Origin: Thiomicrorhabdus aquaedulcis
GTDB lineage: Bacteria > Pseudomonadota > Gammaproteobacteria > Thiomicrospirales > Thiomicrospiraceae
Direction: 5' to 3'
Assembly (NCBI RefSeq): GCF_004001325.1
Contig: NZ_AP018722.1
Location: 310,001 to 374,000, forward strand
Length of the DNA: 64,000 nt
Positions 1,071 to 30,060 of the stretch are shown here, piece by piece; positions within the stretch are counted from its first letter, which is position 1; every line of letters begins with the position of its first letter. Made by a program: the position numbers and the translations under genes. The notes beneath the pieces are model-generated. The model saw nothing but the letters and a program-made list of their open reading frames with translations, searched no databases and had not been told where the DNA came from.

Positions 1071-1082
1071 ACCAGGCCTGGT
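1071..1082. repeat. ACCAGGCCTGGT palindrome, copy 1
   Basis: Exact 12-mer, extended to the 16-bp palindrome TGACCAGGCCTGGTCA (1069-1084). It lies in the divergent intergenic region between the YcgL gene and the NAD(P)-binding protein gene. Member of the repeat family described in the findings. Confidence 0.9.
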
Positions 1083-1132
1083 CATTTACTTATTCTTATG
1101 GGCTTTGAATAACACAATTGGATTTTAGCGCC

Positions 1133-2101
1133 ATGTTAGGAAACAACGTTACAGTGTTTGGTGGGTCGGGATTTGTTGGCCGTGAAGTGGTTAATGCGCT
1201 GTCTAAAGCCGGTTATGTGGTCACTTTGGTGGTGCGCAGACCCGAGCGCTTTCGTGAGTTTGCGCTGTTTCCTAATACCAAGGTGGTGGCGTTAAGTGGT
1301 TACGATAAAGCCGATGAGTTGTACGCCACCTTGCAACACGCCGACATTATGGTTAACCTAACCGCCGACCGTTTAACCGGTACCGAAAAGGTGGAAGAGG
1401 CTGATTTGGTCGGTGTAGCGCAAAAACTTAAGGCCGCTGCCGAACACATGGGCGTTAAGCGCGTGTTGAGTTTGTCACTCATTGGCGCGTCGTCAACCAA
1501 GGGTGACAACGATTGGTTGCGCCATTTGGGCGAAGCCGATGGCTTAATGATGGGCGTGGTAAAAGCCGATGTCACCGTATTGCGCGCGGGTTTATTAATT
1601 GGGCCAAACGACGGCGTGACCAGTGCGTTTATTAAACAGTTAGACCGCATGGCGTTATTAATGGTGGCCAATGCCGACACCGTTGTGCAGCCGTTATGGG
1701 TTAAAGATTTTGCCCAAGCTTTTGTGCAAGCCATTCCACAAAAAGCGTTGTTTAACCAAAAAATTGAAGTGGCCGGCGAAGAGCGTTTAAGCGTGAAAGA
1801 GCTGGGCGAGTTGGTGGCCGAAATCAAACAAAAAACCGCTATTGTGTTTCCAATGTGCCGGTTAAACGCCAAGTTTATGGTGTTTTTGGGGGCGTTAGCG
1901 CCGTTTGCGTCGGTTAGTGCGCAGCAGTTGTTAACCTTAAAAGAAGACAGCGACACCGATCAAGATTTTGCCACGCGCTTTGGCTTTATGCCCAGCAGTT
2001 TAGAGTGGGTTATTGCCAGCTACGCGACGGTGCATCACATTAGAGAGCGGTATAATTTTTACCGCAGAGAAGCCGGGCGCAATTCGCGCGAATTAGTATA
2101 G
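1133..2101 (+). CDS. NAD(P)-binding atypical SDR protein, NDUFA9-like
   Basis: A protein of about 322 residues with an N-terminal Rossmann fold. VTVFGGSGFVGREVV is the GxxGxxG dinucleotide-binding loop. The protein resembles the complex I NDUFA9-like branch of the extended/atypical short-chain dehydrogenases. The classical YxxxK catalytic pair is not apparent, so it may bind a nucleotide without being an oxidoreductase. Substrate is unknown. The start is uncertain: ATG 1133 is used, but TTG 1118 would add five residues, and neither has a clear ribosome site. The stop codon TAG forms the left target duplication of the adjoining MITE, so the element inserted exactly at the gene end. Confidence 0.7.
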   Translation: MLGNNVTVFGGSGFVGREVVNALSKAGYVVTLVVRRPERFREFALFPNTKVVALSGYDKADELYATLQHADIMVNLTADRLTGTEKVEEADLVGVAQKLKAAAEHMGVKRVLSLSLIGASSTKGDNDWLRHLGEADGLMMGVVKADVTVLRAGLLIGPNDGVTSAFIKQLDRMALLMVANADTVVQPLWVKDFAQAFVQAIPQKALFNQKIEVAGEERLSVKELGELVAEIKQKTAIVFPMCRLNAKFMVFLGALAPFASVSAQQLLTLKEDSDTDQDFATRFGFMPSSLEWVIASYATVHHIRERYNFYRREAGRNSRELV

Positions 2102-2262
2102 CGAGACCTCTGCACGAGTGGATGTACGGCCAAAAATGGTTAAATTTCCCCTGCTTTTCGTTAGAAAACTTGTGAATAGCCAGCTATTCACTCCGTTTCC
2201 CGCCTCAATCAGGTAAAATTTTTCGCATTTTTTTCTCGTACCCCACTCGTGCAAAGGTCTCG
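2102..2262. mobile_element. 161-bp MITE with IS5-like terminal inverted repeats
   Basis: Two 20-bp terminal inverted repeats, matching at 19 of 20 positions, lie at 2102-2121 and 2243-2262. They begin CGAGACC and contain GCACGAGTGG. The trinucleotide TAG flanks both ends (2099-2101 and 2263-2265), as expected for a target duplication. The interior has no credible coding region but holds a 9-bp stem-loop at 2172-2191 (GTGAATAGC/GCTATTCAC). Ends of the type GAGACCTTTGCA are known from IS5-family elements, so I infer a non-autonomous derivative mobilised in trans. No parent transposase is in the window. Confidence 0.75.
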
Positions 2263-2302
2263 TAGCGTTTTTTATTGCGCGTAACGCGTAACGTGTCTGT
2301 TT

Positions 2303-2330
2303 AAAAGCCGTCTTTTTAGACGGCTTTTTT
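2303..2330 (+). terminator. intrinsic terminator upstream of cca
   Basis: An 11-bp stem (AAAAGCCGTCT/AGACGGCTTTT) with a TTTT loop and a trailing T run. It lies between the MITE and cca and could end transcription of the gene at 1133. The A/T symmetry could let it work in both directions. Confidence 0.8.
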
Positions 2331-2351
2331 GTTGTATCTGGAGGCAACGCA

Positions 2352-3605
2352 ATGAATCAACAAGTGTATTTAGTCGGTGGCGCAGTGCGGGATGCTCTGT
2401 TGGGAGTAGCTGTTTACGACCGTGACTGGGTGGTAGTGGGCTCAACCCCAGAGCAGATGTTGGCTCAAGGGTTTGTGCAGGTGGGCAAAGATTTTCCGGT
2501 TTTTTTGCACCCTAAAAGCCGTGAAGAATATGCTTTGGCGCGTACCGAACGTAAATCGGGGGTGGGGTATCATGGTTTTGACATAGCCGCCTCGCCCAAT
2601 GTCACGTTAGAAGAAGATTTGCAACGCCGCGACTTAACCATAAACGCCATGGCGCAAGACGCGCAGGGTCACATTATTGACCCGTACGGCGGCCAGGCCG
2701 ATTTAACCCAGCGGGTGTTGCGCCATGTGTCGGCCGCCTTTAGCGAAGATCCGTTGAGAGTATTACGAGTAGCGCGTTTTGCCGCTAAATTACAGCCGTT
2801 TGGTTTTACGATTCATCCCGATACCTTGGCGTTAATGCAGGCCATGGTACAAAGCTGCGAACTGGCGCATTTAACCCCCGAACGCGTCTGGCAAGAGGTG
2901 GTAAAAGCCTTAAGTTGCGATAAACCCAGTGTGTTTTTTAGCGTGTTACGTCAGGTCGGGGCGCTGGCGGTGTTGTTTCCGGAGCTTGAGCGTTTGTTTG
3001 CAGTGCCGCAACCGCCCCAACATCACCCCGAGGGCGATGCGGGCGTGCACACGTTAATGGTGTTGGATGCCGCTTGCGCGTTAAGCGATAGCTTAGAAGT
3101 GCGGTTTGGTGCGCTTATGCACGATTTAGGTAAGGGTGTTACGCCCGAGGCGCTTTGGCCAAAGCATCACGGTCATGAAGCCGCCGGCGTGCCCTTGGTA
3201 AGCGCCTTATGCGAACGCTATCGCGTGCCTAAAAAAATGCAAAGTTTTGCCGAAAAAGTCACCTTATGGCATGGAATTATTCACACTGCACTGGACCAAC
3301 AAGGTGCGCCCTATTTAAAAGCCAAAACGGTTTTAAAAGTGCTTAAAGGTTGTGGGGCGTTAAAAGACCCCGAAGGCTTTAACAAGATACTCTTAGCGTG
3401 TGAGGCCGATGCCAAAGGGCGTACTGGGTTTGAACACATTGACTACAAACCCACCGCGTTTTGGTTGGGGGTGTTGGCGGCGGTAAGCCAGCTGAACAAT
3501 CAAGAAATTTTAGCCCAAGGCTTGAGTGGTGCGGCCATTGGTGAGGCGATTGACGCCAAGCAGTTGCAATTGGCGCACGAATACATGAGCGCGATAACCG
3601 CTTAA
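2352..3605 (+). CDS. cca: CCA-adding tRNA nucleotidyltransferase, multifunctional
   Basis: Adds or repairs the 3' CCA end of tRNAs using CTP and ATP. At 417 residues it is the long class II form. The N-terminal nucleotidyltransferase head shows LVGGAVRD (7-14), the metal-binding D23xD25 in YDRDW, and RRD (92-94) from the nucleotide-selecting motif. The C-terminal half carries an HD phosphohydrolase domain (GVHTL near 231, MHDLGKG with H257/D258), which in the E. coli protein gives phosphatase and 2',3'-cyclic phosphodiesterase activity. A strong ribosome site (GGAGG) precedes the ATG. It appears monocistronic, with terminators on both sides. Confidence 0.95.
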
Positions 3606-3615
3606 TTTATGCGCG

Positions 3616-3631
3616 TTAATAACGTTATTAA
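3616..3631. repeat. 16-bp AT-rich palindrome
   Basis: Perfect palindrome TTAATAACGTTATTAA just after the cca stop codon. It is 13 bases from a copy of the ACCAGGCCTGGT family. Function unknown. Confidence 0.6.
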
Positions 3632-3644
3632 TGTTTTTAACGCT

Positions 3645-3662
3645 TTGACCAGGCCTGGTCAA
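3645..3662. repeat. ACCAGGCCTGGT palindrome, copy 2 (18-bp form)
   Basis: Perfect 18-bp palindrome TTGACCAGGCCTGGTCAA with the exact core at 3648-3659, in the convergent gap between cca and the haem protein gene. It shows the extended consensus of the family. Confidence 0.9.
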
Positions 3663-3692
3663 CCTGATTTTTGGTTTGCAATTTTAAACACA

Positions 3693-3731
3693 AAAAAGCC
3701 GCGTTAACCCAGTTGGATTAACGCGGCTTTT
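3693..3731. terminator. bidirectional terminator between cca and the haem protein gene
   Basis: A 14-bp stem (AAAAGCCGCGTTAA/TTAACGCGGCTTTT) with T runs on both strands, placed between two convergent genes. Confidence 0.85.
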
Positions 3732-3763
3732 AAAAGGTTTTAAAAGCTTTTTAAGGCTTCTAA

Positions 3764-4348
3764 TTACAGCTTAGTTTGCTTAAAGCTAAACGCACCACGA
3801 ATTTGCCCTAACTGGTAGTCAACGGCTTTATCAGTAGGATAATGTTCAGTAATTTTTTGTTTAACCGCCGCAGGTATCGCGGTGCCGTGGCAGGTTAAGC
3901 ACACTTCGGCGGTGCCAACGGCTTTCATGTAACGGTAAGTGTCTTGGCCGTCTACTTTGACAATTTCAAATTTTTCTAAGGTTTTTACGTCTTTGCCCGC
4001 TGCCAATTCTTGGTCAAACCACTGCATGGTTTTGGTTTCCCACGCGTCAGGAGTCGCCGTAGCGCCGCGTGGTTTTAAGCTGACGCGGTTTACGTTCCAA
4101 CCACTGCTTTGGCTTAAGTCGGCGGCAATTTTAGGCGCGACTTCGTGACACATGCCTACCGCATGCACCGGGCCGCCTTCTTTCATGGCTTTGCCCAGCG
4201 CGGGTTGTAACGTCTTACCAAACTCGCCAGCAATTGCGCGTGCTTCGGCCAATTTTGGGTCGGTGATTGGATCGGTGCTGGCAAACGCCGTTGCGCTTAA
4301 CGTTAATGGCAGGACCAATGCGGCGCTTAATAATAGAGTCTTGTTCAT
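3764..4348 (-). CDS. periplasmic c-type haem protein, DUF3365 (Tll0287-like)
   Basis: A 194-residue secreted protein with a Sec signal peptide (residues 1-23, cleavage near AFA-ST) and one CxxCH covalent haem motif (CLTCH, 150-154). The conserved VGMCHEV segment near 65-71 and the overall pattern match the DUF3365/Tll0287-like family, haem proteins proposed to act in redox sensing or electron transfer. An exact role cannot be assigned. It ends against a bidirectional terminator and is divergent from the RND pump genes, with about 290 bases between the starts. Cys67, in addition to the CxxCH pair, is a further feature to note. Confidence 0.8.
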   Translation of the reverse strand: MNKTLLLSAALVLPLTLSATAFASTDPITDPKLAEARAIAGEFGKTLQPALGKAMKEGGPVHAVGMCHEVAPKIAADLSQSSGWNVNRVSLKPRGATATPDAWETKTMQWFDQELAAGKDVKTLEKFEIVKVDGQDTYRYMKAVGTAEVCLTCHGTAIPAAVKQKITEHYPTDKAVDYQLGQIRGAFSFKQTKL

Positions 4349-4568
4349 GGTTATTTCCTTAATAATAAATTTTTATTAAATCTTATTTTTGCTTATGCTT
4401 ATATAAGATTATTTTATACTTCGTAAATATAACATCTGCTTTCAGTTTAAACAACACTAAAAATTACAAGGTTTTTGGGGTGTGCAAATAAGCCCATTTG
4501 CCTTAAATATAAATGGTTTGCGGCCAAGGTTTTCATTAGAATGAGTGGTTCTAAAATGCCTTGGCAAA

Positions 4569-4619
4569 AGCTGGTTAAAGCCGAATCAAGGCGACTCAAG
4601 CCAACTAACGCTGGCTAAA
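4569..4619. repeat. imperfect direct repeat upstream of the efflux operon
   Basis: GCTGGTTAAAG (4569-4579) and GCTGGCTAAAG (4609-4619) lie 40 bases apart, with related AAGCC and CTCAAG words between them. They are within 70 bases of the pump operon start and could be regulator sites. No promoter could be assigned with confidence in 4349-4638, which otherwise holds only AT-rich sequence. Confidence 0.35.
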
Positions 4620-4638
4620 GACTCAATTGGGAAAACGC

Positions 4639-5886
4639 ATGCAAATTCAAAAACTATCACGCTTGTTTAAAAAGAGCCTTATCCCCTTACTTATTTTAGG
4701 TACGGCCATGGCCGCCTACGCTTATATGAAAGCCACTAAGCCCAAGCAAGCGCCGGTGGCCATGCAAGAAAAAACCTGGCAAGTTCATACCCTAAGCGCG
4801 CAATTTGAAAGCGCCGCACCGGTGCATACGTTATACGGTACGGTTGAATCGGCGTCGATGGTAAGTGCGGCCGCGCCCATTAGTGGTGTGGTTGAGCAGG
4901 TGCATGTTAAAACCGGCCAAGAGGTAAACGCCGGCGATGTGTTGGTGTCGATGGCCAGCGCCGATTTAAGCATTCCAGTACAACAAGCTCAAGCCGATGT
5001 GGCCGAGTTAAACGCGCAAATTAAACTGCAAAAATTGGCCGACACAGCCAACGTGCAGCGCTTAACGCACGAGAAAAATGTGTTAAAAATTAAGCAGCAG
5101 AGCGTGGCGAGGACTCAGCAATTGCTGGCCAAAGACTTGGTGTCGCGTTCAGCCTTAGACACCAATCAAGAGGCGTTAGTCAAGCAAGAGTACGCAGTGG
5201 TGGGCGCGCAGTTGGCGGTAGAAGAGAATCAATTAAAGGTAAATCAACTGGGTGCTAAATTACAAAAATCGCAAGCGGCTTTAGCGCAAGCGCGTTTAAA
5301 TCAGCAGCGCGGCACGGTAGTAGCCCCTTATGCGGCGCGTGTTGCCAGTGTTGCGGCGGTCGCGGGTTCGCGGGTAAATGCCGGTGCCGAACTGGTGCGG
5401 TTTTACGCCTTTGACAGTTTAGAGTTACGCGCCAAATTGCCCCTAGACATGTTGGCGCACTATTACCAAGCGCAAGCGAAAAACCAATTCTTAAAGGCGC
5501 ATTATCTGCAAGGTGAAGAGCGCATCGAACTGTCTTTAAGCCGCGTGGCGGGTGAGGCCAGCACCAGTGGCGTAGACGCGTTTTTTGCGCTTGCGCCAGG
5601 CATGCAACAGACCAGGCCTGGTGATTTGCTTGAGATTGGTTTGCAAGGCGTGCTGATGCATAACGTGATGAGCGTGCCGTTTAGCGCCATTTACGGCAGT
5701 GATAAAGTCTATGTGGTTGAAAACGAACGTTTGGTGTCTAAAACCGTCGAAATGATGGGCTCTGTTGTGCGTGACGGTAAGTTGTGGGCGTTGATTAAGC
5801 CAAGTTTTGCGGCTGGCTCAAAGGTCTGCATTACCCACTTACCCAATGCGGTGTCGGGGCTTAAAGTAACCGAGGTGGTGTTATGA
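4639..5886 (+). CDS. RND efflux periplasmic adaptor (membrane fusion protein)
   Basis: A 415-residue HlyD/AcrA-family adaptor that would link the inner-membrane RND pump to an outer-membrane channel. It has an N-terminal membrane anchor (LIPLLILGTAMAAYAYM), a lipoyl half-motif (ISGVVEQVHVKTGQEVNAGDVLV), a long alpha-helical hairpin (roughly residues 110-215), the second lipoyl half (VVAPYAARVASV) and C-terminal beta-barrel domains. The ATG at 4639 is preceded by GGGAA; a TTG at 4627 would add four residues. The stop overlaps the next start by four bases (ATGA), so the two are translationally coupled. A palindrome copy at 5611-5622 encodes TRPG in frame. Substrate unknown. Confidence 0.88.
   Translation: MQIQKLSRLFKKSLIPLLILGTAMAAYAYMKATKPKQAPVAMQEKTWQVHTLSAQFESAAPVHTLYGTVESASMVSAAAPISGVVEQVHVKTGQEVNAGDVLVSMASADLSIPVQQAQADVAELNAQIKLQKLADTANVQRLTHEKNVLKIKQQSVARTQQLLAKDLVSRSALDTNQEALVKQEYAVVGAQLAVEENQLKVNQLGAKLQKSQAALAQARLNQQRGTVVAPYAARVASVAAVAGSRVNAGAELVRFYAFDSLELRAKLPLDMLAHYYQAQAKNQFLKAHYLQGEERIELSLSRVAGEASTSGVDAFFALAPGMQQTRPGDLLEIGLQGVLMHNVMSVPFSAIYGSDKVYVVENERLVSKTVEMMGSVVRDGKLWALIKPSFAAGSKVCITHLPNAVSGLKVTEVVL
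5611..5622. repeat. ACCAGGCCTGGT palindrome, copy 3 (inside adaptor gene)
   Basis: Exact 12-mer in frame within the adaptor gene, read as ACC AGG CCT GGT (Thr-Arg-Pro-Gly) in a beta-barrel region near residues 325-328. Confidence 0.9.
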
Positions 5887-9056: not shown

Positions 9057-9207
9057 GGGTATGCGTAAAACTTAGGTGATTGATTTTTTTATAATTTTTA
9101 CTGATTTTGCCCGATAGCCGCGCAAATAGAGTGTTTGCGATAAATAAGAAAACTTGATGATTTGATGGTTTTAAGAGAGAATAATCGTCCCAAATTATAT
9201 TATGGTG

Positions 9208-9233
9208 CGGGTTTGTGTGTAAAATTTAACCCG
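9208..9233 (+). other. stem-loop in the tkt upstream region
   Basis: CGGGTT and AACCCG form a 6-bp stem around a 14-base AT-rich loop, 69 bases before the tkt start. The rest of 9057-9302 shows no promoter or terminator I would call with confidence. Confidence 0.3.
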
Positions 9234-9302
9234 TAAAACGGTTTGTTTAAGCGCAATAAGCATCGTAAAAACCGAATTTTTTATAAAAATTGAGGAAGTT
9301 GT

Positions 9303-11291: not shown

Positions 11292-11346
11292 TCGTATAAA
11301 TTCGTAAAATGAATTAATAGATTATTTTATTGGTTTTTATAAATTA

Positions 11347-11375
11347 ACCAGGCCTGGTAAACCAGCAGGCCTGGT
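11347..11375. repeat. ACCAGGCCTGGT palindrome, copy 4, plus one-mismatch copy
   Basis: An exact copy at 11347-11358 is followed by AGCAGGCCTGGT at 11364-11375 (one mismatch). They lie between tkt and gap, about 45 bases upstream of the gap start. Confidence 0.85.
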
Positions 11376-11378
11376 TAG

Positions 11379-12419
<1,041 letters not shown>

Positions 12420-13838: not shown

Positions 13839-13868
13839 ACCAGGCCTGGTTAAATGACCAGGCCTGGT
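13839..13868. repeat. ACCAGGCCTGGT palindrome, copies 5 and 6 in tandem
   Basis: Two exact copies (13839-13850 and 13857-13868) are separated by only six bases, directly after the pgk stop. They could form alternative hairpins and may act as a terminator, since a short T run follows. Confidence 0.9.
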
Positions 13869-17034: not shown

Positions 17035-17772
17035 CTACACCTTGGTTTGCATTGAATTGTCTTGATGACTGAGTAGTTCTATAAGTTTTGGGCTTAGCAT
17101 AACAGGCGTTTGGCTGGGGTTGAAGGCAACGGAAAATATTGGGTAATGGGTGAACTGCGCTAAGCCTTGCGAAAAATCACCGGGTTGCAAATGGTTTACA
17201 ACAATGGCCAGCAAGGATAAACCACTGGCTTCAATGGCTTCAACGGTCAGTAACGTATGATTAATGCACCCAAGCTGATTACCAACAACTAAAATAATGG
17301 GGTAACCCAATCGCATCGCCAAATTTTTATTAAAACCATCGCTCGCCATGGGCGAGTAAAATCCACCGGCACCTTCTATCAAGGCAAAATGATTATTGGG
17401 AACCGAACAGGCCTGGTATAAGTCATTAATGGTGATGTTAAGTCCCGCGTGAGCAAGGGCTAAATGCGGCGAGATGGCGGGTTCAAGAGTATAACGACCT
17501 ATGACATCTAAAGGTTCCAAACTCTTGGCCGCGCATTGTAGAGCGAGCGCATCGGTTGAAAGCAAATCGCCGTTAAGTTGACGAACGCAACCCGAGGCGA
17601 TGGGTTTGCGAGGCGCTACCGTAATGCCGTGCGCCACTAATGTGGCGGCCAGGCAGGCACTTATATAGGTTTTGCCCACGTCGGTGTCGGTGCCGGTTAT
17701 AAAACAACCAGGCCTGGTTAAGTGCGTTTGACTTAACCAGGCCTGGTTGTTGTCTGTGGGCGTATTTGTCAC
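17035..17772 (-). CDS. bioD: dethiobiotin synthetase
   Basis: ATP-dependent closure of the ureido ring from 7,8-diaminopelargonate and CO2, the penultimate step of biotin synthesis. The P-loop GTDTDVGKT lies at 27-35, later than usual, because the protein has an extra N-terminal stretch of about 22 residues. That stretch is encoded by a 21-bp inverted repeat made of two ACCAGGCCTGGT palindromes, and no alternative start exists between it and the P-loop. Downstream motifs include the EGAGGFYSP loop. At 245 residues the protein is slightly long. It lies nine bases after purC on the same strand, so co-transcription is likely, while bioA is 11 kb away. Confidence 0.92.
   Translation of the reverse strand: MTNTPTDNNQAWLSQTHLTRPGCFITGTDTDVGKTYISACLAATLVAHGITVAPRKPIASGCVRQLNGDLLSTDALALQCAAKSLEPLDVIGRYTLEPAISPHLALAHAGLNITINDLYQACSVPNNHFALIEGAGGFYSPMASDGFNKNLAMRLGYPIILVVGNQLGCINHTLLTVEAIEASGLSLLAIVVNHLQPGDFSQGLAQFTHYPIFSVAFNPSQTPVMLSPKLIELLSHQDNSMQTKV
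17406..17417. repeat. one-mismatch ACCAGGCCTGGT copy inside bioD
   Basis: AACAGGCCTGGT differs from the family core at one position. It lies in the middle of bioD and is read as part of YQACS on the minus strand. Confidence 0.5.
17703..17751. repeat. 21-bp inverted repeat built from two ACCAGGCCTGGT copies
   Basis: Arms at 17703-17723 and 17731-17751 are perfect 21-bp reverse complements around a seven-base spacer. Exact cores sit at 17707-17718 and 17736-17747. On the minus strand they encode NQAW and TRPG near the BioD N-terminus. The RNA could form a very stable hairpin starting about 20 bases into the reading frame. Confidence 0.92.
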
Positions 17773-20077: not shown

Positions 20078-20098
20078 ACACTGATCTTGTTTTTTCTA

Positions 20099-20132
20099 AA
20101 AACGCCGGCGGCTTATAGGGCGCTGGCGTTTT
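20099..20132 (+). terminator. intrinsic terminator after rpe
   Basis: A 12-bp stem (AAAACGCCGGCG/CGCTGGCGTTTT, one G-U pair) with a ten-base loop, followed by a T-rich tail. Confidence 0.8.
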
Positions 20133-20205
20133 GTTATTTTATGACAAAGCACATAACAGCAAAGTACGCTCACGATTGAGTGGTTCAAACGCAAAGGAAG
20201 CCTTA

Positions 20206-20886
20206 GTGGAAAAGTTAAAACCGGGATTTGTGTTGTTTGATTTAGACGGCACGCTTGTCGACAGCGTACCCGATTTGGCGTATTGCGTGGATGAGATGAT
20301 GGCGCAACTTGATATGCCAGTGCGCGGCGAAGATGCGGTGCGTAATTGGGTGGGCAACGGAGTGCAGCGTTTAGTAGAACGCGCCCTTGTTAATGCGGTA
20401 GAAGGCATGCCCGATGCTGATTTAATGGCTAAAGCCTATCCTATTTTTTTAGAGTTGTATAAACACAACACGTCACAGCGCAGTTGTGTGTACGACGGAG
20501 TAGTGGAAGGCATTGAGTGGCTTATTGCCAACGATTACCGTGTGGCATGTGTCACCAATAAAGCCGAGGCCTTTACCATTCCGTTATTAAAAGACAAAGG
20601 CTTGCACGATTACTTTGAAGTGATTGTCAGTGGTGACACTTGTGCCGAGAAAAAACCCAGCCCAATGCCGTTGTTGCATGCGGCACAACAGTTGGGTGTT
20701 GCGCCCGAAAACGCCTTAATGGTGGGCGATTCTAAATCGGACGTGTTGGCTGCACGCGCCGCTGGGTTTCACATTTTTTGTATGCCTTATGGCTACAACC
20801 ACGGTGAAGACATTCGCAACTACCACCCAGATGTCATTATGGAATCGATGGTGGAATTGGCCGATTATTTAGACGCTAAGTCTTGA
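20206..20886 (+). CDS. gph: phosphoglycolate phosphatase
   Basis: HAD-superfamily phosphatase that removes phosphate from 2-phosphoglycolate, the product of RuBisCO oxygenation and of DNA repair. The 226-residue protein begins at GTG 20206, chosen because AAGGAAG lies seven bases upstream and the next residues lead into FDLDGTLVDSVPDLA, with the nucleophile Asp of motif I. Motif II (VTNKAEAF) and motif III/IV (KPSPMPLL, MVGDSKSDVLAARAAG) are intact. Its place after rpe and before trpE is conserved in gammaproteobacteria. Substrate assignment rests on this context as well as on family resemblance. Confidence 0.9.
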   Translation: MEKLKPGFVLFDLDGTLVDSVPDLAYCVDEMMAQLDMPVRGEDAVRNWVGNGVQRLVERALVNAVEGMPDADLMAKAYPIFLELYKHNTSQRSCVYDGVVEGIEWLIANDYRVACVTNKAEAFTIPLLKDKGLHDYFEVIVSGDTCAEKKPSPMPLLHAAQQLGVAPENALMVGDSKSDVLAARAAGFHIFCMPYGYNHGEDIRNYHPDVIMESMVELADYLDAKS

Positions 20887-20918
20887 TTTAAACTGCGTTG
20901 TTGAACCATGTTAAGCAT

Positions 20919-20940
20919 AAACGACCAGGCCTGGTCGTTT
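20919..20940. repeat. ACCAGGCCTGGT palindrome, copy 9 (22-bp form, terminator-like)
   Basis: A perfect 22-bp palindrome with the exact core at 20924-20935, flanked AAACG/CGTTT and followed by GTGTTTTTGG. It may serve as the gph terminator. This is the longest single palindrome of the family in the window. Confidence 0.85.
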
Positions 20941-21013
20941 GTGTTTTTGGTTTTTGAATGCAATCATTATTAAATAAAAACCTTAGAAATTTATAATCAC
21001 ACTGTTTTACTCA

Positions 21014-21026
21014 GAGACCTTTGCAC
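21014..21026. mobile_element. possible solo IS end matching the MITE terminus
   Basis: GAGACCTTTGCAC matches exactly 13 bases of the right-end terminal repeat of the MITE at 2102-2262 (read on the opposite strand). It abuts the ATG of the 48-codon ORF. No second end was found nearby, so it may be a relic or a coincidence. Confidence 0.35.
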
Positions 21027-21173
21027 ATGCGTTTTATTAAAGCATTGTTATTAGAAATTTTTAGACCCATAGTGTGTTCTGTGGCCGGCATTAGCCGTGC
21101 CATTGCGTTTAAACGACTTGAACACCGTGCGGCCAAGCCGCTCAAGACTATCAAGGCAGACCCCAATGAATAA
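21027..21173 (+). CDS. 48-residue basic peptide ORF overlapping trpE
   Basis: A short open frame from ATG 21027 to TAA 21173, which overlaps the trpE start by eight bases. The product begins [17 protein letters not shown] and is basic in its second half ([17 protein letters not shown]). It has no Trp residue, so it is not a classical attenuator leader peptide. The upstream ribosome site is weak (CAGAGA). It could be a real small protein coupled to trpE translation or a chance frame. I do not recognise a family. Confidence 0.45.
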
Positions 21174-22695: not shown

Positions 22696-22739
22696 ATAAC
22701 CCAAACACACATAAGCGTAACGCTTGCTGAGGCTTTTAC

Positions 22740-23351
22740 ATGCTGTTAATGATTGATAATTACGACTCTTTTACCTTTAATTTGGTGCAGTATTTTGGCG
22801 AGCTTGGTCAGCAGGTTGAGGTCTATCGCAACGATCAAATTACCCTTGAAACCATTCAGACCCTTAATCCCGACTATTTGGTGATTTCCCCCGGGCCGTG
22901 TACGCCCAGCGAAGCAGGGATTTCGGTGGCGGCGATTCAGCATTTTGCTGGCAAAATTCCTATTATGGGCGTGTGTTTAGGTCATCAAGGCATTGGTCAG
23001 GCGTTTGGTGCAAAAATTGTGCGCGCCAAGCAGGTTATGCACGGTAAAACCTCGCCGGTGTACCATCACAATGTCGGCATGTTTAAAGACTTGCCCAATC
23101 CGGTAGAAACCACGCGTTACCATTCGTTGGTGATTGAACAGGCCTCATTGCCCGAGTGTTTAGAAATCACCGCGTGGACGCAAGATGCCAACGGTCAGCT
23201 CGATGAGATTATGGGGGTGCGCCATAAAACCCTCGCCATTGAAGGGGTGCAGTTTCATCCTGAGTCGATTTTGACCGAACAAGGTCACAAAATGTTGCAA
23301 AACTTTTTAGAACAACATCAATCGCAACCCCACGTTTTGGAGCAGGTATGA
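22740..23351 (+). CDS. trpG: anthranilate synthase component II (glutamine amidotransferase)
   Basis: Class I glutamine amidotransferase that supplies ammonia to TrpE; in some bacteria the same subunit also serves PabB. The 203-residue protein opens [19 protein letters not shown], has the oxyanion-loop [12 protein letters not shown], the catalytic Cys in [14 protein letters not shown], and the His/Glu pair in [12 protein letters not shown] lies seven bases before the ATG. The stop overlaps the trpD start by four bases. Confidence 0.95.
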
Positions 23352-24376
23352 ACTTAACCGTTGCCCTAGAGCAAATCTTGGCCAAAGACGATTTGCACGC
23401 CGACCAGATGGAATCGGTCATGCAAAAATTAATGTCGGGACAAGCCAGCGAAGCGCAAATTGCGGCTATTTTAGTGGCGTTACGCATGAAAGGCGAAAGC
23501 TTGGATGAGCTCACGGCGGCCGTAAAAGTCATGCGTTCTTTGGCGCATGGCGTGCATGTAAAGCAAACCGCGCATTTGGTGGACACCTGCGGTACTGGGG
23601 GGGATGGCGCCAATACCTTTAACATTTCGACCGCCAGTGCTTTTGTTGTGGCCGCCGCGGGTGGCACGGTCGCCAAGCACGGCAACCGTTCTATTTCGAG
23701 TAAATCGGGCAGCGCCGATGTGTTAGAGGCCGCCGGAGTTGATTTAAGTTTGACGCCCGAGCAAGTGGCGCATTGCATTGATTCGGTTGGGGTGGGATTT
23801 ATGTTTGCCCCCGCGCATCATGGCGCGATGAAGCACGTTATTGGCACGCGAAAAGCGCTGGGTGTGCGCACCATTTTTAATTTATTAGGGCCGCTGACCA
23901 ATCCGGCTAACGCGCCGTTTCAGGTGATTGGTGTATACGACAAGTCGCTCACGACGGTGTTTGCGACGGTGCTGCAACGCTTGGGTTCGGCGCATGTGAT
24001 GGTGGTGCATTCGCAAGACGGCTTGGACGAAATCAGCGTTGCCGCTAAAACCTGGGTGGCTGAATTAAAACACGGTCAAATTCACGAATGGCAAATTGAT
24101 CCGGCCGACTACGACATGGATCACGCCAGTTTAGACAGTTTGTCGGTGAGTTCGGCGCAGGACAGCTTAAATATTATTAAAGCGGTGTTTGCCAATAACG
24201 ACGGTGCAGCCAAAGACATTGTGTGTTTAAACGCGGGTGCTGCCATTTATGTAGCCGGACTAGAACCCAGCTACGCGCAAGGCGTGGCGCGCGCACGAAA
24301 AGTCTTGGCCGACGGCTTGGTGTTACAAAAACTCAATCAATTTATAGAACAAACGCAAACGTTTAAAGCGGTGTAA
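23348..24376 (+). CDS. trpD: anthranilate phosphoribosyltransferase
   Basis: Joins anthranilate to phosphoribosyl pyrophosphate. The 342-residue protein has the PRPP-binding [17 protein letters not shown], the [19 protein letters not shown] segment and the GPLTNPA motif near residue 180. It overlaps trpG by four bases (ATGA), so translation is likely coupled. It is followed by a 148-base gap with two palindromes before trpC. Confidence 0.96.
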
Positions 24377-24410
24377 TGTAAGCCGACTTGCTATTGCAAA
24401 CCCTCTTTTA

Positions 24411-24462
24411 ACCAGGCCTGGTTAGTTTAAAATTTTAAACATTTAAACCTACCAGGCCTGGT
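24411..24462. repeat. ACCAGGCCTGGT palindromes, copies 10 and 11, around an AT palindrome
   Basis: Exact cores at 24411-24422 and 24451-24462 flank a perfect 16-bp palindrome GTTTAAAATTTTAAAC (24425-24440). The group fills much of the trpD-trpC gap, so three palindromes lie within 52 bases. Confidence 0.9.
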
Positions 24463-24524
24463 CAATTCATTTTAAAACGTTAAACACTAATAACGTTAAA
24501 CAATATAGCGTTAAGGAAAACGGC

Positions 24525-25322
24525 ATGAGTGCAACGCCCACTATTTTAAAAAAAATTATCTTTCGCAAATTGGAAGAGATTCAACAAGGCTGTGAAGCCA
24601 TTCCGTTACGTGAAATGAAGCAACGCGCCATGCTGGCGCCACCCGCGCGTGACTTTGTGGCGGCCATGCAAGCCAAGTTAGCTGCGGGTCAATCAGCGGT
24701 GATTGCCGAAATTAAAAAAGCTTCGCCCAGTAAAGGTGTGTTGCGTGAGCCGTTTGATCCGGTTGAAATTGCCAAAAGCTACGCTCAGCACGGCGCGGCG
24801 TGTTTGTCGGTGCTGACCGACGTCGATTTTTTTCAAGGCTCTAACGCCTATTTGCAAAGTGTGCGCGCCGCAGTTGATTTACCTATTATTCGTAAAGACT
24901 TTATTGTGGACGATTACCAAGTGTACGAAGCCCGCGCCATTGGTGCCGACTGCATTTTATTAATAGCCGCCGCCATTGGCGACGCACAAATGTACGAGCT
25001 CACCCAAGTGGCGTTGCAGCTGGGTATGGATGTGCTGATTGAAGTGCATAACGAAGATGAATTAGAGCGCGCTTTGCGTCTGCCCTTGCCAATGATTGGC
25101 ATCAATAACCGCGATTTGCACAACTTTGAGGTGTCACTGGACACCACGTTGCGTATGTTGGATAAAATTCCGGATGACCGAATTGTCATTACCGAAAGCG
25201 GCATTTTAACTCCAGCGGATGTGCAAAAAATGCGCGCGCATCACGTCAATAGTTTTTTAGTGGGCGAAACCTTTATGCGGGCTGAAAATCCGGGTGAAAA
25301 ACTTGCTGAACTTTTTAGTTAA
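24525..25322 (+). CDS. trpC: indole-3-glycerol phosphate synthase
   Basis: Closes the indole ring from carboxyphenylaminodeoxyribulose phosphate. The 265-residue TIM-barrel protein shows the signature [67 protein letters not shown] and ITESGI. It is a single-domain TrpC without a fused TrpF. The ribosome site AAGGAA precedes the ATG. It ends the trp cluster here; trpF, trpB and trpA are not in the window. Confidence 0.96.
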
Positions 25323-25441
25323 ATCAGTCACTTGGCGTTGTCGGTTTTAGACACAATCTAAAAAAATAAACTTGCAATGCCACCCAAAAAGTGAATAATA
25401 CGCTCTCCTTTTTTTCCCTCTTGAAAAAATGGTTAAAACCT

Positions 25442-25460
25442 CACGTTATTTTAGAACGTG
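25442..25460 (+). other. weak stem-loop upstream of speD
   Basis: CACGTT/AACGTG forms a 6-bp stem in the 235-base trpC-speD gap. It may end trp transcription or lie in the speD leader; there is no T run. No promoter is called in the rest of the gap. Confidence 0.25.
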
Positions 25461-25557
25461 GCTGGGGTTCATCAAGCTAGCCTTGTCTTGACGAATTTTT
25501 GTTAATCATTCATCTGTCTTTTACAACATAAGCGGATGTTTTAGTAAGGTACTTCCA

Positions 25558-26076
25558 ATGCCAAATTCAGAAAACATACTGGTCACCAGTAACGATCACT
25601 TTGAAGTGATTGAAAAAACCACCCTTATTGACGCCTCTTGGCCAACCCACGAACAAGCCGTTGAAGATTTAACCCTTGATCACTTTATTTGCCGTGACGG
25701 CAAAGTGTACGCAGGCACACACATTATTGCCGACTTTTGGGGCGCGAGTCGTTTAGACGATTTACAACTCATGGAGCGTGCTTTGCGCGAGGGTATTAAA
25801 AAAGCCAACGCCACTTTATTGCATATTCATTTACACCACTTTACCCCCAATGGCGGAATTTCTGGGGTAGCGGTATTGGCCGAATCGCATATTAGTGTGC
25901 ATTCTTGGCCAGAACGTAATTACGCGGCGTTTGACGTGTTTATGTGCGGTGATTCGGATCCGATGATGGCCATTGAGGTGTTAAAAGAAGCCTTTACGCC
26001 CGACAACGTTATCATTGATACGCTGTTGCGTGGCGAAGTTGCCGACATACATGAGGTTGCAAGCGGTGAGCAGTAA
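25558..26076 (+). CDS. speD: S-adenosylmethionine decarboxylase proenzyme
   Basis: Pyruvoyl enzyme that makes the aminopropyl donor for spermidine. The 172-residue protein belongs to the short bacterial class related to SpeH. Self-cleavage is expected between Glu109 and Ser110 in [13 protein letters not shown], with Ser110 becoming the pyruvoyl group. His115 and Cys130 (DVFMCGD) match the processing and catalytic residues of the family. It overlaps speE by 11 bases, and a palindrome copy begins at its last base. Confidence 0.94.
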
Positions 26077-26956
26077 CCAGGCCTGGTCAAATAAAAGTTC
26101 ACAAAACGGTCGCAAAACCTATTTAGAAACGTTGTACCCTGCATGGGGTCAACAGTTTGTAATAGACGAAGTGTTGTTTGAGGCTCAAACCGAGCACCAA
26201 CATTTGGTGATTTTTAATAACGCCCAATGGGGTTCTGTGATGGCGCTGGACGGCGTAATTCAAACCACTGAAAAGGACGAGTTTGTTTATCATGAGATGA
26301 TGGTGCATGTGCCATTATTGGCGCACGGTCACGCAAAGTCGGTGTTGATTATTGGCGGCGGCGATGGTGGTATTTTGCGTGAGGTGCTTAAACACTCGGC
26401 GTTAGAGCATGTGACTCAAGTAGAAATTGATCAACAAGTTATTGATTTGTGTCGTGAGCATTTACCCAATCATTCAGCGGGGGCTTACGATCATCCTAAG
26501 GCGCATATTGTGATTGGCGATGGGGTTGAATTTGTTACTAAAACGACACAAAAATTTGATATCATCATTTCCGATTCGACCGACCCCATGGGGCCTGGAG
26601 AAGTTTTGTTTACGTCACGTTTTTATCAAGGCATTCAGCGTTGTCTAAATTCGGGCGGTGTGTTTGTGGCACAAAATGGGGTGAGCTTTTTGCAAACCAC
26701 CGAGGTGACCACCACGCACAAGCGTTTATCGCCGTTATTTAAAGAAGCCAGTTTTTACAGCGCGGCAGTGCCAACCTATGTGGGAGGTATTATGATGTTT
26801 GCGTGGGCAACCGATGATATGGCATTAAAAAATGTGGATTTAGCCACGCTACAGGCGCGTTTTACACAAGCAGAGATTAAAACGCGTTTTTATACCCCTT
26901 TGTTGCACCAGGCCTGCTTTGCCTTACCGCAATACATTATGGAAGCTTTAAAATAA
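26066..26956 (+). CDS. speE: spermidine synthase
   Basis: Aminopropyltransferase that forms spermidine from putrescine and decarboxylated AdoMet. The Rossmann-like core shows [42 protein letters not shown] and [16 protein letters not shown]. Conserved similarity begins near [15 protein letters not shown], so the start is uncertain: GTG 26066 with GAGG nine bases upstream is preferred, giving 296 residues, while ATG 26051 would add five. The unconserved N-terminal tail contains the NQAW encoded by a palindrome copy. Its stop overlaps the decarboxylase start by one base. Confidence 0.93.
26076..26087. repeat. ACCAGGCCTGGT palindrome, copy 12, at the speD/speE overlap
   Basis: The exact core begins at the last base of the speD stop codon and is read as NQAW within the speE N-terminal tail. 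Confidence 0.9.
26907..26918. repeat. one-mismatch ACCAGGCCTGGT copy in speE
   Basis: ACCAGGCCTGCT lies near the speE 3' end and is read as HQACF, a position that resembles conserved family sequence. It may therefore be coincidental. Confidence 0.35.
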
Positions 26957-28155
26957 TGGATAAACAAACTATCGTCGAATCTTTTGCAGAACAGTCGCAT
27001 CCAGACGTTCTAGAACAATTTGACCGCGCCAGTCTGACCGATTTAGTCGCCAAACACGAAACACCGTTTATGGTGTTGGATTTAGAAGAAATCGACTACC
27101 AATATAAGTCACTGCAAGCGGCATTGCCCGGCGTACAACTTTTTTACGCTTTAAAAGCGTTATCGCATCCCGAGCTTATTAAGCGGTTAAAAAAATTAGG
27201 CAGCAGTTTTGACCTAGCCACCATTGGTGAAGTTGAGCTGGTTGAGTCTTTAGGCATTAAGGGCAATCAGTGTATTCACACGCATCCTATAAAAAAGGAT
27301 AAAGAAATCGCGCGTGCTTTAGAATTTGGGTGCACACGTTTTGTCGTAGATAACGTCGAAGAGATGAAAAAATTCTACAAATACGCGGGTCAAGTAGAGT
27401 TGATTATTCGTGTCAGCTTCCGCAGTCGTCAGGCGGTGGTCGATTTATCACGTAAATTTGGTTGCGCGCTAGAAGAGTTGCCCATTTTGGTCGAAATGGC
27501 GCAGCAAAACGGCATTGATGTGGTGGGCTTGTCCTTTCACGTCGGCTCACAATCGCTTTCACCTATGACCCAAGTCAACGCAATTCGTTCGAGTATTGCG
27601 GCTATGAAAGTGATGAACAATGTTAAATGGAAGTTTCTAGACATTGGTGGTAGTTTTCCGGTGTCATACCAAGAAGCGGTGTTGCCCATTGCAGATTTTT
27701 GTGCACCTGTTATGGAAGCCCTAAGTGAATTGCCTGAAGGGGTAGAAGTGTTTGCTGAGCCGGGGCGTTTTATTTCGGCGCCGTCCATGATTGAAGTGGT
27801 CTCCATTGTAGGCAAAGCCAAGCGCGGTGCTAGAATGTGGTATTACTTAGACGACGGTGTGTACGGTGGGTTTAGTGGTCAGATGTTTGATCACGCGATT
27901 TATCCATTAGCGCCGCTTAAGCCATTTGACCCAACGGGTGTGTTTTTACCCAGCGTCTTGGCCGGGCCTACTTGCGACAGCGTAGACGTGATTGCCGAAG
28001 ACATTGAATTACCTGAAATGGAAATTGGCGACATTTTAATTGGCAAGCAAATGGGCGCGTATACTTTGGCATCGGCCACCGAGTTTAACTACTATCCAAA
28101 GCCTAAAGTCATTGTGGTTGAAGATATTTTTGACCCAGAAACTGAAGCGCTTTAA
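26956..28155 (+). CDS. fold-III PLP ornithine/lysine decarboxylase
   Basis: Alanine-racemase-fold decarboxylase that would supply putrescine (or cadaverine) to the adjoining spermidine synthase. The 399-residue protein has the PLP Lys67 in LFYALKALSHP, the HVGSQ segment, the glycine-rich phosphate site LDIGGSFP, EPGRFISAP, and the C-terminal catalytic Cys in LAGPTCDSVDV with YTLASATEFNY. Its start shares one base with the speE stop, so speD-speE-this gene form one operon. Ornithine is the likelier substrate from context; lysine or both remain possible. Confidence 0.9.
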   Translation: MDKQTIVESFAEQSHPDVLEQFDRASLTDLVAKHETPFMVLDLEEIDYQYKSLQAALPGVQLFYALKALSHPELIKRLKKLGSSFDLATIGEVELVESLGIKGNQCIHTHPIKKDKEIARALEFGCTRFVVDNVEEMKKFYKYAGQVELIIRVSFRSRQAVVDLSRKFGCALEELPILVEMAQQNGIDVVGLSFHVGSQSLSPMTQVNAIRSSIAAMKVMNNVKWKFLDIGGSFPVSYQEAVLPIADFCAPVMEALSELPEGVEVFAEPGRFISAPSMIEVVSIVGKAKRGARMWYYLDDGVYGGFSGQMFDHAIYPLAPLKPFDPTGVFLPSVLAGPTCDSVDVIAEDIELPEMEIGDILIGKQMGAYTLASATEFNYYPKPKVIVVEDIFDPETEAL

Positions 28156-28186
28156 ACCCAGTATTGTTAATTTAAAGGATGTGAAC

Positions 28187-28603
28187 ATGTCAATTTCAAT
28201 TAAATGGCAAGGTAAAAAAGCGTTTGAAGCGACCTCTTCAACCGGGCACAAAGTGATGATGGACGCCTCTAAAGAAGTGGGTGGAGAAGATCGTGGCTCG
28301 CGCCCTATGGAGTTATTGCTGATGGGTTTGGGCGGCTGTTCGGGAATCGATGTGGTGATGATGCTCGAAAAGGGCGGTCAAACCGTTACCGATTGTCAAA
28401 TTGAGGTTGACGCCGAACGTGCCGACGGCATTCCGGCGGTTTACACCAAAATTCATGCGCATTACAAAGTGTTTGGGCAGGCGTTAAATGAGAAAAAAGT
28501 TCAGCGTGCAGTTGAGCTGTCGGCCGAAAAATATTGTTCGGTGTCTAAAATGCTCGAAAAAACTGCCGAAATAACTCACAGCTTTGAGATTATTGAAGCG
28601 TAA
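28187..28603 (+). CDS. OsmC/YhfA-family protein
   Basis: A 138-residue OsmC-superfamily protein. The two conserved cysteines, Cys51 in GLGGCSGIDV and Cys117 in AEKYCSVSKML, match the redox pair of OsmC/Ohr peroxidases. The sequence is closer to the YhfA subgroup, whose substrate is not established. The start ATG 28187 follows AAGGA; an upstream frame overlapping the decarboxylase gene is not credible. It lies 31 bases after the polyamine genes and ends at a strong terminator, so it may be part of that transcript. Confidence 0.85.
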   Translation: MSISIKWQGKKAFEATSSTGHKVMMDASKEVGGEDRGSRPMELLLMGLGGCSGIDVVMMLEKGGQTVTDCQIEVDAERADGIPAVYTKIHAHYKVFGQALNEKKVQRAVELSAEKYCSVSKMLEKTAEITHSFEIIEA

Positions 28604-28639
28604 TTGATTTATTTTTGGCTGTTTGTCAGTTTGTCTGTT

Positions 28640-28669
28640 AAAAAAACCAGTCCTCGGACTGGTTTTTTT
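28640..28669. terminator. bidirectional terminator between osmC-like gene and bioA
   Basis: A 14-bp perfect stem (28640-28653 with 28656-28669) with a two-base loop and A/T runs of seven on both sides, between convergent genes. Confidence 0.92.
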
Positions 28670-28686
28670 ATGTCCAAAATAAAGTG

Positions 28687-28698
28687 ACCAGGCCTGGT
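28687..28698. repeat. ACCAGGCCTGGT palindrome, copy 13
   Basis: Exact core six bases beyond the bioA stop codon, in the convergent gap. Confidence 0.9.
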
Positions 28699-28704
28699 TA
28701 GTTT

Positions 28705-30060
28705 TTAAATTTGCGCAATGCTTAAGGTTTGACCAGGCCTGGTCAAGACCTGTTTAACCGCATTAATTAATGCATCGGTAAGTGTTTGTAGGTCTTCTTT
28801 TGCAATGTTAAACGCCGGCATGGTGTACACCAAGTTGCCGAACGGTCTTAACCATGCACCGTGTTGCAGTGCGATGGTTTGAATTTGTAGACCCAAATCG
28901 TTACGTTCCAGTTCAACCACCCCAATCGCGCCCAAGACGCGAACATCTACAACCCCCGGCAGGGTTTTTAAGGGGTTAAGGTGTTGGCTAAAATGCGCAG
29001 TGATGTACGTAATCTGTGTTTGCCAAGGGCTGTTTAGCAGCACGTTAATGCTTGCCAACGCGGCTGCACACGCCAGCGGATTGGCCATGAACGTGGGGCC
29101 GTGCATGAGCAAACCGGGTTGACCCTGGCTTACGCCGTCGCTAACGTTTTGGGTGCATAAGGTGGCGGCTAAACTTACCGTGCCGCCTGTTAAGGCTTTG
29201 CCAATGCACATAATGTCTGGGGTAATGCCCGCCCATTCGCTCGCAAAGAGCTTGCCGGTGCGCCCAAAGCCCGTAGCAATTTCGTCCACAATCAGCAATA
29301 CGTTGTATTGGGTGCACAGCGCACGTACTTGTTTTAGATAGTCGGGGCGATAAAATCGCATGCCACCCGCCCCTTGCACAATTGGCTCAATGGTGACGGC
29401 GGCAATGTGGGGGTGATGTTGAGAAAGTAACGCTTCAAAGGCGGCGATGTCGCTGTCGCTGTCGTCTTCTGAACAGTCAAAGCCAAGATGGGGCGCGGGG
29501 GCAAACAGATGCGGGGTAAGTAAGTGACCAAATAACGGGTGCATGCCGCTGTCTGGGTCGCAAACGGCCATAGTGGCAAAGGTGTCGCCGTGATAGCCGT
29601 TGCGAACGGTTAACAGGCGGTTTTTATCAGGACGTAGTTGGCTAATCCAATATTGTAATGCCATTTTTATGGCGACTTCCATGGCTACCGAACCGGAATC
29701 GCTGTAAAACACTTTGTCCAGGCCTGGTGGAACGATGTTTAACAGGGCTTTGGTAAGTGCAATGGCCGGTTCATGAGTAAGCCCACCAAACATAATGTGC
29801 GGCATGGTGTCAATTTGTTGGTGCATGGCCGCGCAAATGTCAGGGTGGTTGTAGCCATGAATGGCCGCCCACCAAGAGGACATGCCATCCACCACCACCT
29901 GCTGATTAGCCAATGTAATGTGAGAGCCGCTGGTGCTGATAACGCCCAACACGTTGAGAGGGTTGGGAACTTTTGCATAAGGGTGCCAAATATGTTGGCG
30001 ATCAAATTCCAGTAAGCTTTGCCAGTGTGCCGATGCTGCGGTGTTGTGGGTGAGTGTCAT
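28705..30060 (-). CDS. bioA: adenosylmethionine-8-amino-7-oxononanoate aminotransferase
   Basis: PLP aminotransferase that forms 7,8-diaminopelargonate, the BioD substrate, using AdoMet as amino donor. The 451-residue protein has DGMSSWWAAIHGYNHP near 58-73, the PLP Asp259 in LIVDEIATGFGRTG, and the Schiff-base Lys288 in IGKALTGG. The C-terminus ends LTRPGQTLSIAQI, where TRPG is encoded by an exact palindrome copy (residues 440-443) and so may be a late addition. It follows truC by 28 bases on the minus strand, with no other biotin gene nearby. Confidence 0.95.
   Translation of the reverse strand: MTLTHNTAASAHWQSLLEFDRQHIWHPYAKVPNPLNVLGVISTSGSHITLANQQVVVDGMSSWWAAIHGYNHPDICAAMHQQIDTMPHIMFGGLTHEPAIALTKALLNIVPPGLDKVFYSDSGSVAMEVAIKMALQYWISQLRPDKNRLLTVRNGYHGDTFATMAVCDPDSGMHPLFGHLLTPHLFAPAPHLGFDCSEDDSDSDIAAFEALLSQHHPHIAAVTIEPIVQGAGGMRFYRPDYLKQVRALCTQYNVLLIVDEIATGFGRTGKLFASEWAGITPDIMCIGKALTGGTVSLAATLCTQNVSDGVSQGQPGLLMHGPTFMANPLACAAALASINVLLNSPWQTQITYITAHFSQHLNPLKTLPGVVDVRVLGAIGVVELERNDLGLQIQTIALQHGAWLRPFGNLVYTMPAFNIAKEDLQTLTDALINAVKQVLTRPGQTLSIAQI
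28729..28746. repeat. ACCAGGCCTGGT palindrome, copy 14 (18-bp form, inside bioA)
   Basis: TTGACCAGGCCTGGTCAA with the exact core at 28732-28743, read as TRPG in the last 12 codons of bioA. Confidence 0.9.
29717..29728. repeat. one-mismatch ACCAGGCCTGGT copy inside bioA
   Basis: TCCAGGCCTGGT lies within bioA and is read as PPGLDK on the minus strand. Confidence 0.5.

Follow-up and report, generated by a model that had tools for sequence, protein, structure and literature searches.

Iterated core motif with dialects in the Thiomicrospiraceae: a probable DNA uptake sequence

The window considered here, the whole 64 kb stretch of a Thiomicrorhabdus genome (G000) that was analysed, carries many copies of the palindrome ACCAGGCCTGGT lying between, past, and within its genes. 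A first-pass annotation of this DNA had placed 14 exact and 5 single-mismatch copies, and all of these are found exactly at the positions it gave:

1071..1082, unstranded, exact copy between divergent ORFs
3648..3659, unstranded, exact copy, convergent intergenic, 42 nt past the stop of a poly(A)-polymerase-like gene
5611..5622, unstranded, exact copy within an HlyD-like gene (4639-5886)
11347..11358, unstranded, exact copy past a transketolase gene, adjoining the one-mismatch copy at 11364
11364..11375, unstranded, one-mismatch copy, AGCAGGCCTGGT
13839..13850, unstranded, exact copy past pgk, first of a close pair in the pgk-pyk gap
13857..13868, unstranded, exact copy, second of the close pair in the pgk-pyk gap
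17406..17417, unstranded, one-mismatch copy within ORF 17035-17772 (-)
17707..17718, unstranded, exact copy close to the 5' end of ORF 17035-17772 (-), whose start codon is uncertain
17736..17747, unstranded, exact copy close to the 5' end of the same ORF, 17035-17772 (-), whose start codon is uncertain
20924..20935, unstranded, exact copy 37 nt past a stop at 20886
24411..24422, unstranded, exact copy past a glycosyltransferase-family-3 gene (23348-24376)
24451..24462, unstranded, exact copy sharing its intergenic gap with the copy at 24411
26076..26087, unstranded, exact copy beginning at the last stop base of ORF 25558-26076, within ORF 26051-26956
26907..26918, unstranded, one-mismatch copy within ORF 26051-26956
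28687..28698, unstranded, exact copy, convergent intergenic
28732..28743, unstranded, exact copy at the 3' end of a class-III aminotransferase gene (28705-30060, -)
29717..29728, unstranded, one-mismatch copy within the class-III aminotransferase gene
63336..63347, unstranded, one-mismatch copy within ORF 63292-63999

When up to 2 mismatches are allowed the window contains 22 matches, compared with a mean of 1.45 and a largest value of 5 in 100 shuffles. Positions 30001-64000 contain no exact copy, which has a P of 6.6e-5 at the genome mean for a stretch chosen post hoc, after its emptiness had been seen. The suggestion that the genome could hold many hundreds of copies is borne out by 718 in the 2,537,035 bases of G000, a mean spacing of ~3.5 kb, with 0 copies of a reversed-pattern control. 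This is far from random expectation, as a 464 kb sample of G000 contains 124 copies where an order-3 Markov model expects 0.05. A slight evenness in the spacing of copies falls short of significance (CV 0.85 vs. 0.955 at random, P 0.10).

The strict part of the core is CAGGCCTG, with the outer A and C being more tolerant: 43 of 53 one-mismatch copies deviate at position 1 or 2. The core is embedded in a longer AT-rich frame, AATTnACCAGGCCTGGTnAATT, and an A-rich stretch 10-12 bases from the centre together with a T at 8 bases recurs in samples from T. chilensis, G005, and G023; in the small samples from G035 and G036 this A-rich frame is faint or cannot be seen. Base preferences in the flanks are alike in coding and non-coding copies. 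Excess flank symmetry is confined to the non-coding copies, and the left and right flanks of coding copies have none, so that the earlier remark that flanks extend the symmetry holds for the former and not the latter, the flanks following fixed base preferences. In coding copies of G000, the single positions -8 and -14 fall below expected symmetry (z -2.5 and -2.1). A one-sided reading of the palindromic dialects, in which either flank is enough, predicts a negative correlation between flanks that is absent here (r is 0.057 for the coding copies of G000 and -0.045 for G023).

Within the 464 kb sample 52 of the 124 copies lie in genes, in agreement with the first-pass view of copies within and between genes that are not simply terminators or operators. 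Density is 0.53-2.0 per kb in intergenic DNA vs. 0.13 per kb in coding DNA and is highest between convergent genes. A T-rich tail lies behind 26 of 59 copies vs. 19 of 146 controls, and copies past genes often also act as terminators. At the terminator position past pgk, as judged by eye, several motif-bearing species have the motif where ordinary hairpins occur elsewhere. These tails, the hairpin symmetry of non-coding copies, and the pgk position are all compatible with a family-specific intrinsic terminator and nothing more, a reading to which we give next to no credence, as it is ruled out by the coding copies with their similar flank preference and lack of hairpin symmetry.

The coding copies arose by substitution in place, because their alignments against relatives that lack the core at the site, to which this comparison was limited, are gap-free in 210 of 219 cases and at 76 of 82 sites. 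The suggestion of a self-spreading micro-palindrome does not survive this result. A mobile REP-like or MITE-like micro-element inserting by itself could account for a palindrome with many intergenic copies and for the 6 pairs of flanks with at least 60% identity (best 0.98) among 121 copies, vs. 0 in 124 random positions. The flanks of nearly all copies are nonetheless unrelated to one another, and Y1_Tnp is missing from 6 of the 15 motif-bearing genomes searched; these absences and the gap-free alignments rule out REP/RAYT and mobile elements, making insertion extremely improbable. A viral collection contained 41 stretches with one site each, at most 3 stretches per contig, and no site-rich virus.

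The core is present across the Thiomicrospiraceae, where relatives carry related but differing versions and 21 of 37 genomes are motif-bearing, and is probably ancestral in the family. Outgroup genera are motif-bearing, and motif-bearing and motif-poor states need 2 changes on the tree vs. 10.6 in shuffles, with 0 of 500 shuffles as low. One or more lineages have lost the core, and on at least two occasions it was re-specified, as TACCGGCCGGTA in G023 and as the non-palindromic AAACTCAACAGGCCGGGTA in T. cannonii. The G023 dialect ACCGGCCGGT was observed 95 times in 240 kb vs. 0.38 expected, and the T. cannonii dialect AACAGGCCGGGT has 43 copies in 226 kb, in which the two symmetric versions have 0 and 0. 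T. cannonii has the same A-rich stretch at 10-12 and T at 8 bases from the centre, but on one side only, and its close pairs are inverted in 4 of 4 cases, two being followed by at least 5 T. Strand bias is measurable only in this asymmetric dialect, and none was seen, either relative to GC skew in a 220 kb sample (32:30) or with a looser pattern counted genome-wide (311:312). Chi and KOPS likewise occur as hundreds of short lineage-specific copies, but are strand-biased, and the T. cannonii counts rule out a polar motif of this kind.

The first-pass annotation drew an analogy with HIP1 and methylation, which is not supported as a leading idea. In the model of PMC4390886, an iterated palindrome is made or maintained by a methyltransferase recognising part of it, and others replace it in relatives, as among the alternate HIPs of cyanobacteria. 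The palindrome with its GGCC centre, the swapping of versions between relatives, and the one C5-methylase of G000, fused to a MerR-type helix-turn-helix, are reminiscent of this. A search of 58 genomes for 2 methylase families, PF00145 and PF01555 (E 0.001), however, recovered neither from 9 of the 21 genomes that bear the motif. Completeness is at least 99% in 8 of these 9, which include T. chilensis, T. cannonii, and G023. The sequence AGGCCT, with 199 of its 265 occurrences in the G000 sample inside CAGGCCTG, is not enriched outside it, and the T. cannonii version is strictly non-palindromic. The absence of these two methylase families removes a HIP linked to them as a general explanation, and a HIP1-type origin appears very unlikely.

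Another of the roles suggested earlier, an uptake mark, is the best-supported reading here, and the Thiomicrospiraceae probably have a DNA uptake sequence with ACCAGGCCTGGT as its core. The signature has the appearance of a tag by which DNA of close kin would be taken up, and the uptake sequences of Neisseria and Haemophilus, with their dialects, appear to be a closer likeness than HIP1 palindromes, REP elements, or Chi sites. From the earlier interpretation, then, a genome-wide iterated sequence and an uptake role are retained, and the HIP1/methylation lead and the self-spreading micro-palindrome are set aside. A putative competence DNA receptor would favour fragments with the core, strict at CAGGCCTG, inside the AT-rich frame, and these, coming mostly from members of the same species, would be taken up and recombined. 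Variants nearer the preferred sequence would spread, and copies would accumulate by substitution in genes and between them, with intergenic copies additionally serving as arms of terminator hairpins. A change of receptor could lead to slow re-writing of the genome to a new dialect, and loss of specificity to decay of the copies.

Several results count against an uptake role. PilQ (TIGR02515) reached its cut-off in none of 37 family genomes but in 18 of 21 from other families, and ComP_DUS (PF16732) gave a sub-cut-off match in 1 of the 37, the motif-poor G019. ComEC, whose presence in 28 of the 32 genomes of the genus speaks for uptake, is kept in 12 of the 14 motif-poor ones. Uptake sequences are expected to be scarce in codon-atypical genes, a crude proxy for foreign DNA, and no depletion was seen there (0.30, 0.43, 0.25, and 0.24 core 8-mers per kb by quartile); the spacing, not more even than random, adds to this. 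G000 has T2SS, Tad-like, and pilin-like genes, and no receptor candidate tracking the motif emerged from ComP, PilQ, or the pilin pattern in G000. To our knowledge, none of the well-known uptake sequences is palindromic.

The lack of PilQ and ComP matches above cut-off in the family, the dyad-symmetric site with independent halves, and the strict core with copies throughout genes and intergenic DNA would also suit an intracellular protein, such as a nucleoid, chromosome-organising, recombination, or repair factor, that binds sites genome-wide with species-varying specificity. We give such a protein some weight but regard it as unlikely, since part of one genus no longer has the motif, two or more re-specifications have taken place, and in T. 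cannonii the motif is asymmetric yet without strand bias. As a matter of argument, re-specification amounts to hundreds of substitutions, for which uptake would supply a drive and plain binding none.

The chances seem about even that the proposed uptake system arose in sulfur-oxidizing autotrophs independently of those in Neisseria and Haemophilus, and is one in which an ancestral palindrome was readable both ways, perhaps by a two-fold-symmetric receptor, with no recognisable PilQ needed (perhaps Tad or MSHA-like pili serve instead), and in which, on the branch leading to T. cannonii, the reader turned asymmetric and the genome followed, making the shift from a two-sided to a one-sided signal visible inside a single genus. 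In the open-access library searched, no paper contained the exact motif strings, and none combined uptake or palindromes with Thiomicrospira names; broader searches there gave no description of the motif among the matches listed, and a Hydrogenovibrio paper (PMC6501319) makes no mention of competence, pilus, or transformation. If the uptake reading is true, this family is a further lineage with uptake sequences, in which a single genus shows several dialects as well as losses, and symmetric forms exist beside asymmetric ones. The origin and turnover of such signals, which require a receptor and hundreds of genomic sites to shift in concert, could then be tested directly, as could the identity of the receptor, and DNA exchange among these autotrophs would be seen to favour kin.

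Two bacterial families provide the well-described cases of abundant uptake sequences. In the USS of Pasteurellaceae the AT-tracts are on one side only, a feature found here only in T. cannonii; the USS core differs, and USS spacing is ~1 kb vs. 3.5 kb here. The candidate USS receptor is ComN/PpdA, and the DUS receptor is ComP. PMC7811141 names Pasteurellaceae and Neisseriaceae as the uptake-sequence families and describes, as in our genomes, a strict inner core with AT-tracts and overlapping inverted pairs as terminators; dialects are also reported for USS in PMC12616744. The DUS of Neisseriaceae, according to PMC3630211, similarly have many copies with species dialects around a conserved part, inverted pairs tied to terminators, and common intragenic copies, and in Simonsiella overlapping DUS pairs with dyad symmetry, for which a dimer-based reader was suggested. 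The Thiomicrospiraceae motif, a putative uptake sequence, differs from DUS in its sequence, in the palindromic form of most of its dialects, and in having no ComP_DUS above cut-off.

All 14 exact and 5 single-mismatch copies of the palindromic 12-mer core that the first-pass annotation reported in the window lie where it placed them, and its expectation that the genome could hold many hundreds was borne out by a count of 718 copies across the 2.54 Mb genome (2 contigs), with 0 matches to the reversed pattern as a control. The inner 8-mer, CAGGCCTG, occurs 1106 times. The best matches to the window's pyruvate kinase are Thiomicrorhabdus proteins, with T. chilensis at 88% identity. We sampled 464 kb of this genome (the window and 20 stretches, each 20 kb long) and found 124 copies of the 12-mer versus 0.05 expected under an order-3 Markov model; the core is strict, with 43 of 53 one-mismatch copies deviating at position 1 or 2 from either end. 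Coding sequence holds 52 of the 124 copies (0.13 per kb). Another 44 lie between codirectional genes (1.1 per kb), 18 between convergent genes (2.0 per kb), and 8 between divergent genes (0.53 per kb); the last 2 fall at the ends of stretches. Window positions 30001-64000, a 34 kb stretch chosen post hoc, hold zero exact copies (P 6.6e-5 at the genome mean); judging from ORF sizes and tRNAs, we take this stretch to resemble a tuf-nusG-rpoBC-ribosomal-protein region. Another family genome with 400 copies (G036) has 83 kb on contig 1 (209038-292354) free of the 12-mer among the matches listed, possibly an acquired island.

A second dispersed repeat, GAGACCTTTGCACGAGTG..., also occurs in the sample (e.g., in stretch L115) and in the window at:
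21014-21023, plus strand
2252-2261, minus strand
Its 10-mer has 34 matches in 464 kb versus 0.42 expected, it was found once as a 37-bp inverted pair, and it looks like a MITE or an insertion-sequence end. In a further genome of the family, G016, its reverse complement, CAAAGGTCTC, is enriched as well. A different word, ACAAGACAAG, probably a tandem repeat, has 22 occurrences in the 40 kb sampled from G014 (stretches L185 and L186).

Over 58 genomes including its own, the 12-mer count is 0-718 within the Thiomicrospiraceae and 0-1 elsewhere, and the 8-mer core is abundant (at least 236 copies) in 15 of the 32 genomes of the genus and 3 of the 5 from the family's other genera. On a transketolase tree of 33 rows, a single-gene tree with several open branches from which G002 and G017 were left out, the split between motif-bearing and motif-poor genomes takes 2 changes (2-3 over bootstraps), versus a mean of 10.6 with shuffled labels (0 of 500 as low as observed). 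Together with the placement of the bearing genera outside on this tree, this makes it likely that the family's ancestor already had the core, with one loss or more since. Within the poor rows sits G023, which carries its own version, ACCGGCCGGT (95 copies in 240 kb), and the looser pattern ACMGGCCGGK is found by strand 1058/1059 times in G023, 311/312 in T. cannonii, and 174/193 in G004, with 0-29 per strand in the remaining 29 genus genomes; the motif was re-specified in G023 and in T. cannonii/G004. Eight motif-poor genomes have no comparable dispersed word among the words listed (40 kb samples, one of 20 kb).

The T. cannonii version, AACAGGCCGGGT, is not a palindrome. It has 43 copies in about 226 kb, where the symmetric versions AACAGGCCTGTT and ACCCGGCCGGGT have 0 copies each, and its A-tract is confined to one side of the motif (103 sites). 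Given this asymmetric dialect, explanations that depend on a palindrome do not hold for the whole group. The sites divide 32 versus 30 by strand relative to GC skew (n = 62); 32 of them fall in coding sequence (0.16 per kb) and 30 outside it (1.53 per kb). All 4 close pairs are inverted, 2 of them followed by a run of at least 5 T. The main rival to an uptake signal, less probable but a serious candidate, is an intracellular protein occupying the core sites, against which stand both this asymmetric dialect without strand bias and the repeated re-specification of the motif.

Copies in genes form by substitution. Orthologues in the retrieved loci served as the comparison for 347 coding copies, taken from 19 genomes or records; an orthologue without the core was available for 82 sites, at least one such alignment was gap-free at 76 of these, 210 of 219 alignments were gap-free overall, and at 0 of 82 sites did every alignment have a gap of at least 3 residues. 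Flanks of separate copies are unrelated outside a shared frame, except for 6 pairs, among 121 copies, whose flanks are at least 60% identical. Moving outwards, the flanks in T. aquaedulcis favour A or G and then the series T, T, A, A; beyond these come a GC-richer stretch and, at 15-17 bases from the centre, a second AT-rich zone. The pattern is similar in 44 coding and 71 non-coding sites (zones compared informally). Samples of T. chilensis, G005, and G023 share an A-rich stretch at 10-12 bases and a T at 8 bases from the centre, features that are weak or unseen in small samples of G035 and G036. Counting from the 8-mer, left/right flank symmetry shows no excess at positions -3 to -7 of 116 coding sites, and an excess (z 2.0 to 2.8) at 6 of 8 positions within -3 to -10 in 80 non-coding sites (3 of 199 sites, at stretch ends, were left out). 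This suggests that the general signal would be read as double-stranded DNA, the hairpin being an extra role of intergenic copies; a T-rich tail accompanies 26 of 59 gene-copy pairs at most 120 nt from a stop versus 19 of 146 controls.

Methylase families PF00145 and PF01555, sought in 58 genomes, are both absent from 9 of 21 motif-bearing genomes (G010, G015, G018, T. cannonii G020, G021, G023, T. chilensis G025, G027, and G033), and the REP-type Y1_Tnp is absent from 6 of 15 motif-bearing genomes (40 searched). T. aquaedulcis itself encodes a C5 cytosine methylase with a fused N-terminal MerR-type helix-turn-helix (stretch L266, 8060-9310), and genes resembling mutS and recA lie nearby.

ComEC is present in 28 of 32 genus genomes; that 12 of the 14 motif-poor ones keep it is a result against the uptake reading, as are the absence of motif depletion in codon-atypical genes, the non-significant evenness of spacing, and receptor searches (ComP, PilQ, and a pilin pattern in T. 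aquaedulcis) that found no candidate. ComP_DUS gave a single match in the family, below cut-off. Of the family's 37 genomes, 0 score above cut-off with the PilQ model TIGR02515, versus 18 of 21 from other families, and weaker secretin matches occur in most family genomes, so that Thiomicrospiraceae may be without the standard type IV pilus secretin. T. aquaedulcis has what we take to be T2SS pseudopilin-like genes, pilin-like genes at 1834-1841 kb, and a Tad/Flp-like operon that carries a secretin of its own, the Flp pilin match being below cut-off. Missing PilQ would not be fatal to the uptake reading, since natural transformation in Micrococcus luteus reportedly requires Tad/Flp-type pili (PMC6370729).

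For Thiomicrospiraceae, the best-supported reading is a putative family of DNA uptake sequences divided into dialects, most of them palindromic and one asymmetric. The anatomy of the T. cannonii dialect is the same as that of the neisserial and Haemophilus uptake sequences, and on the features tested the core system behaves like DUS/USS, uptake itself being what we infer from sequence.
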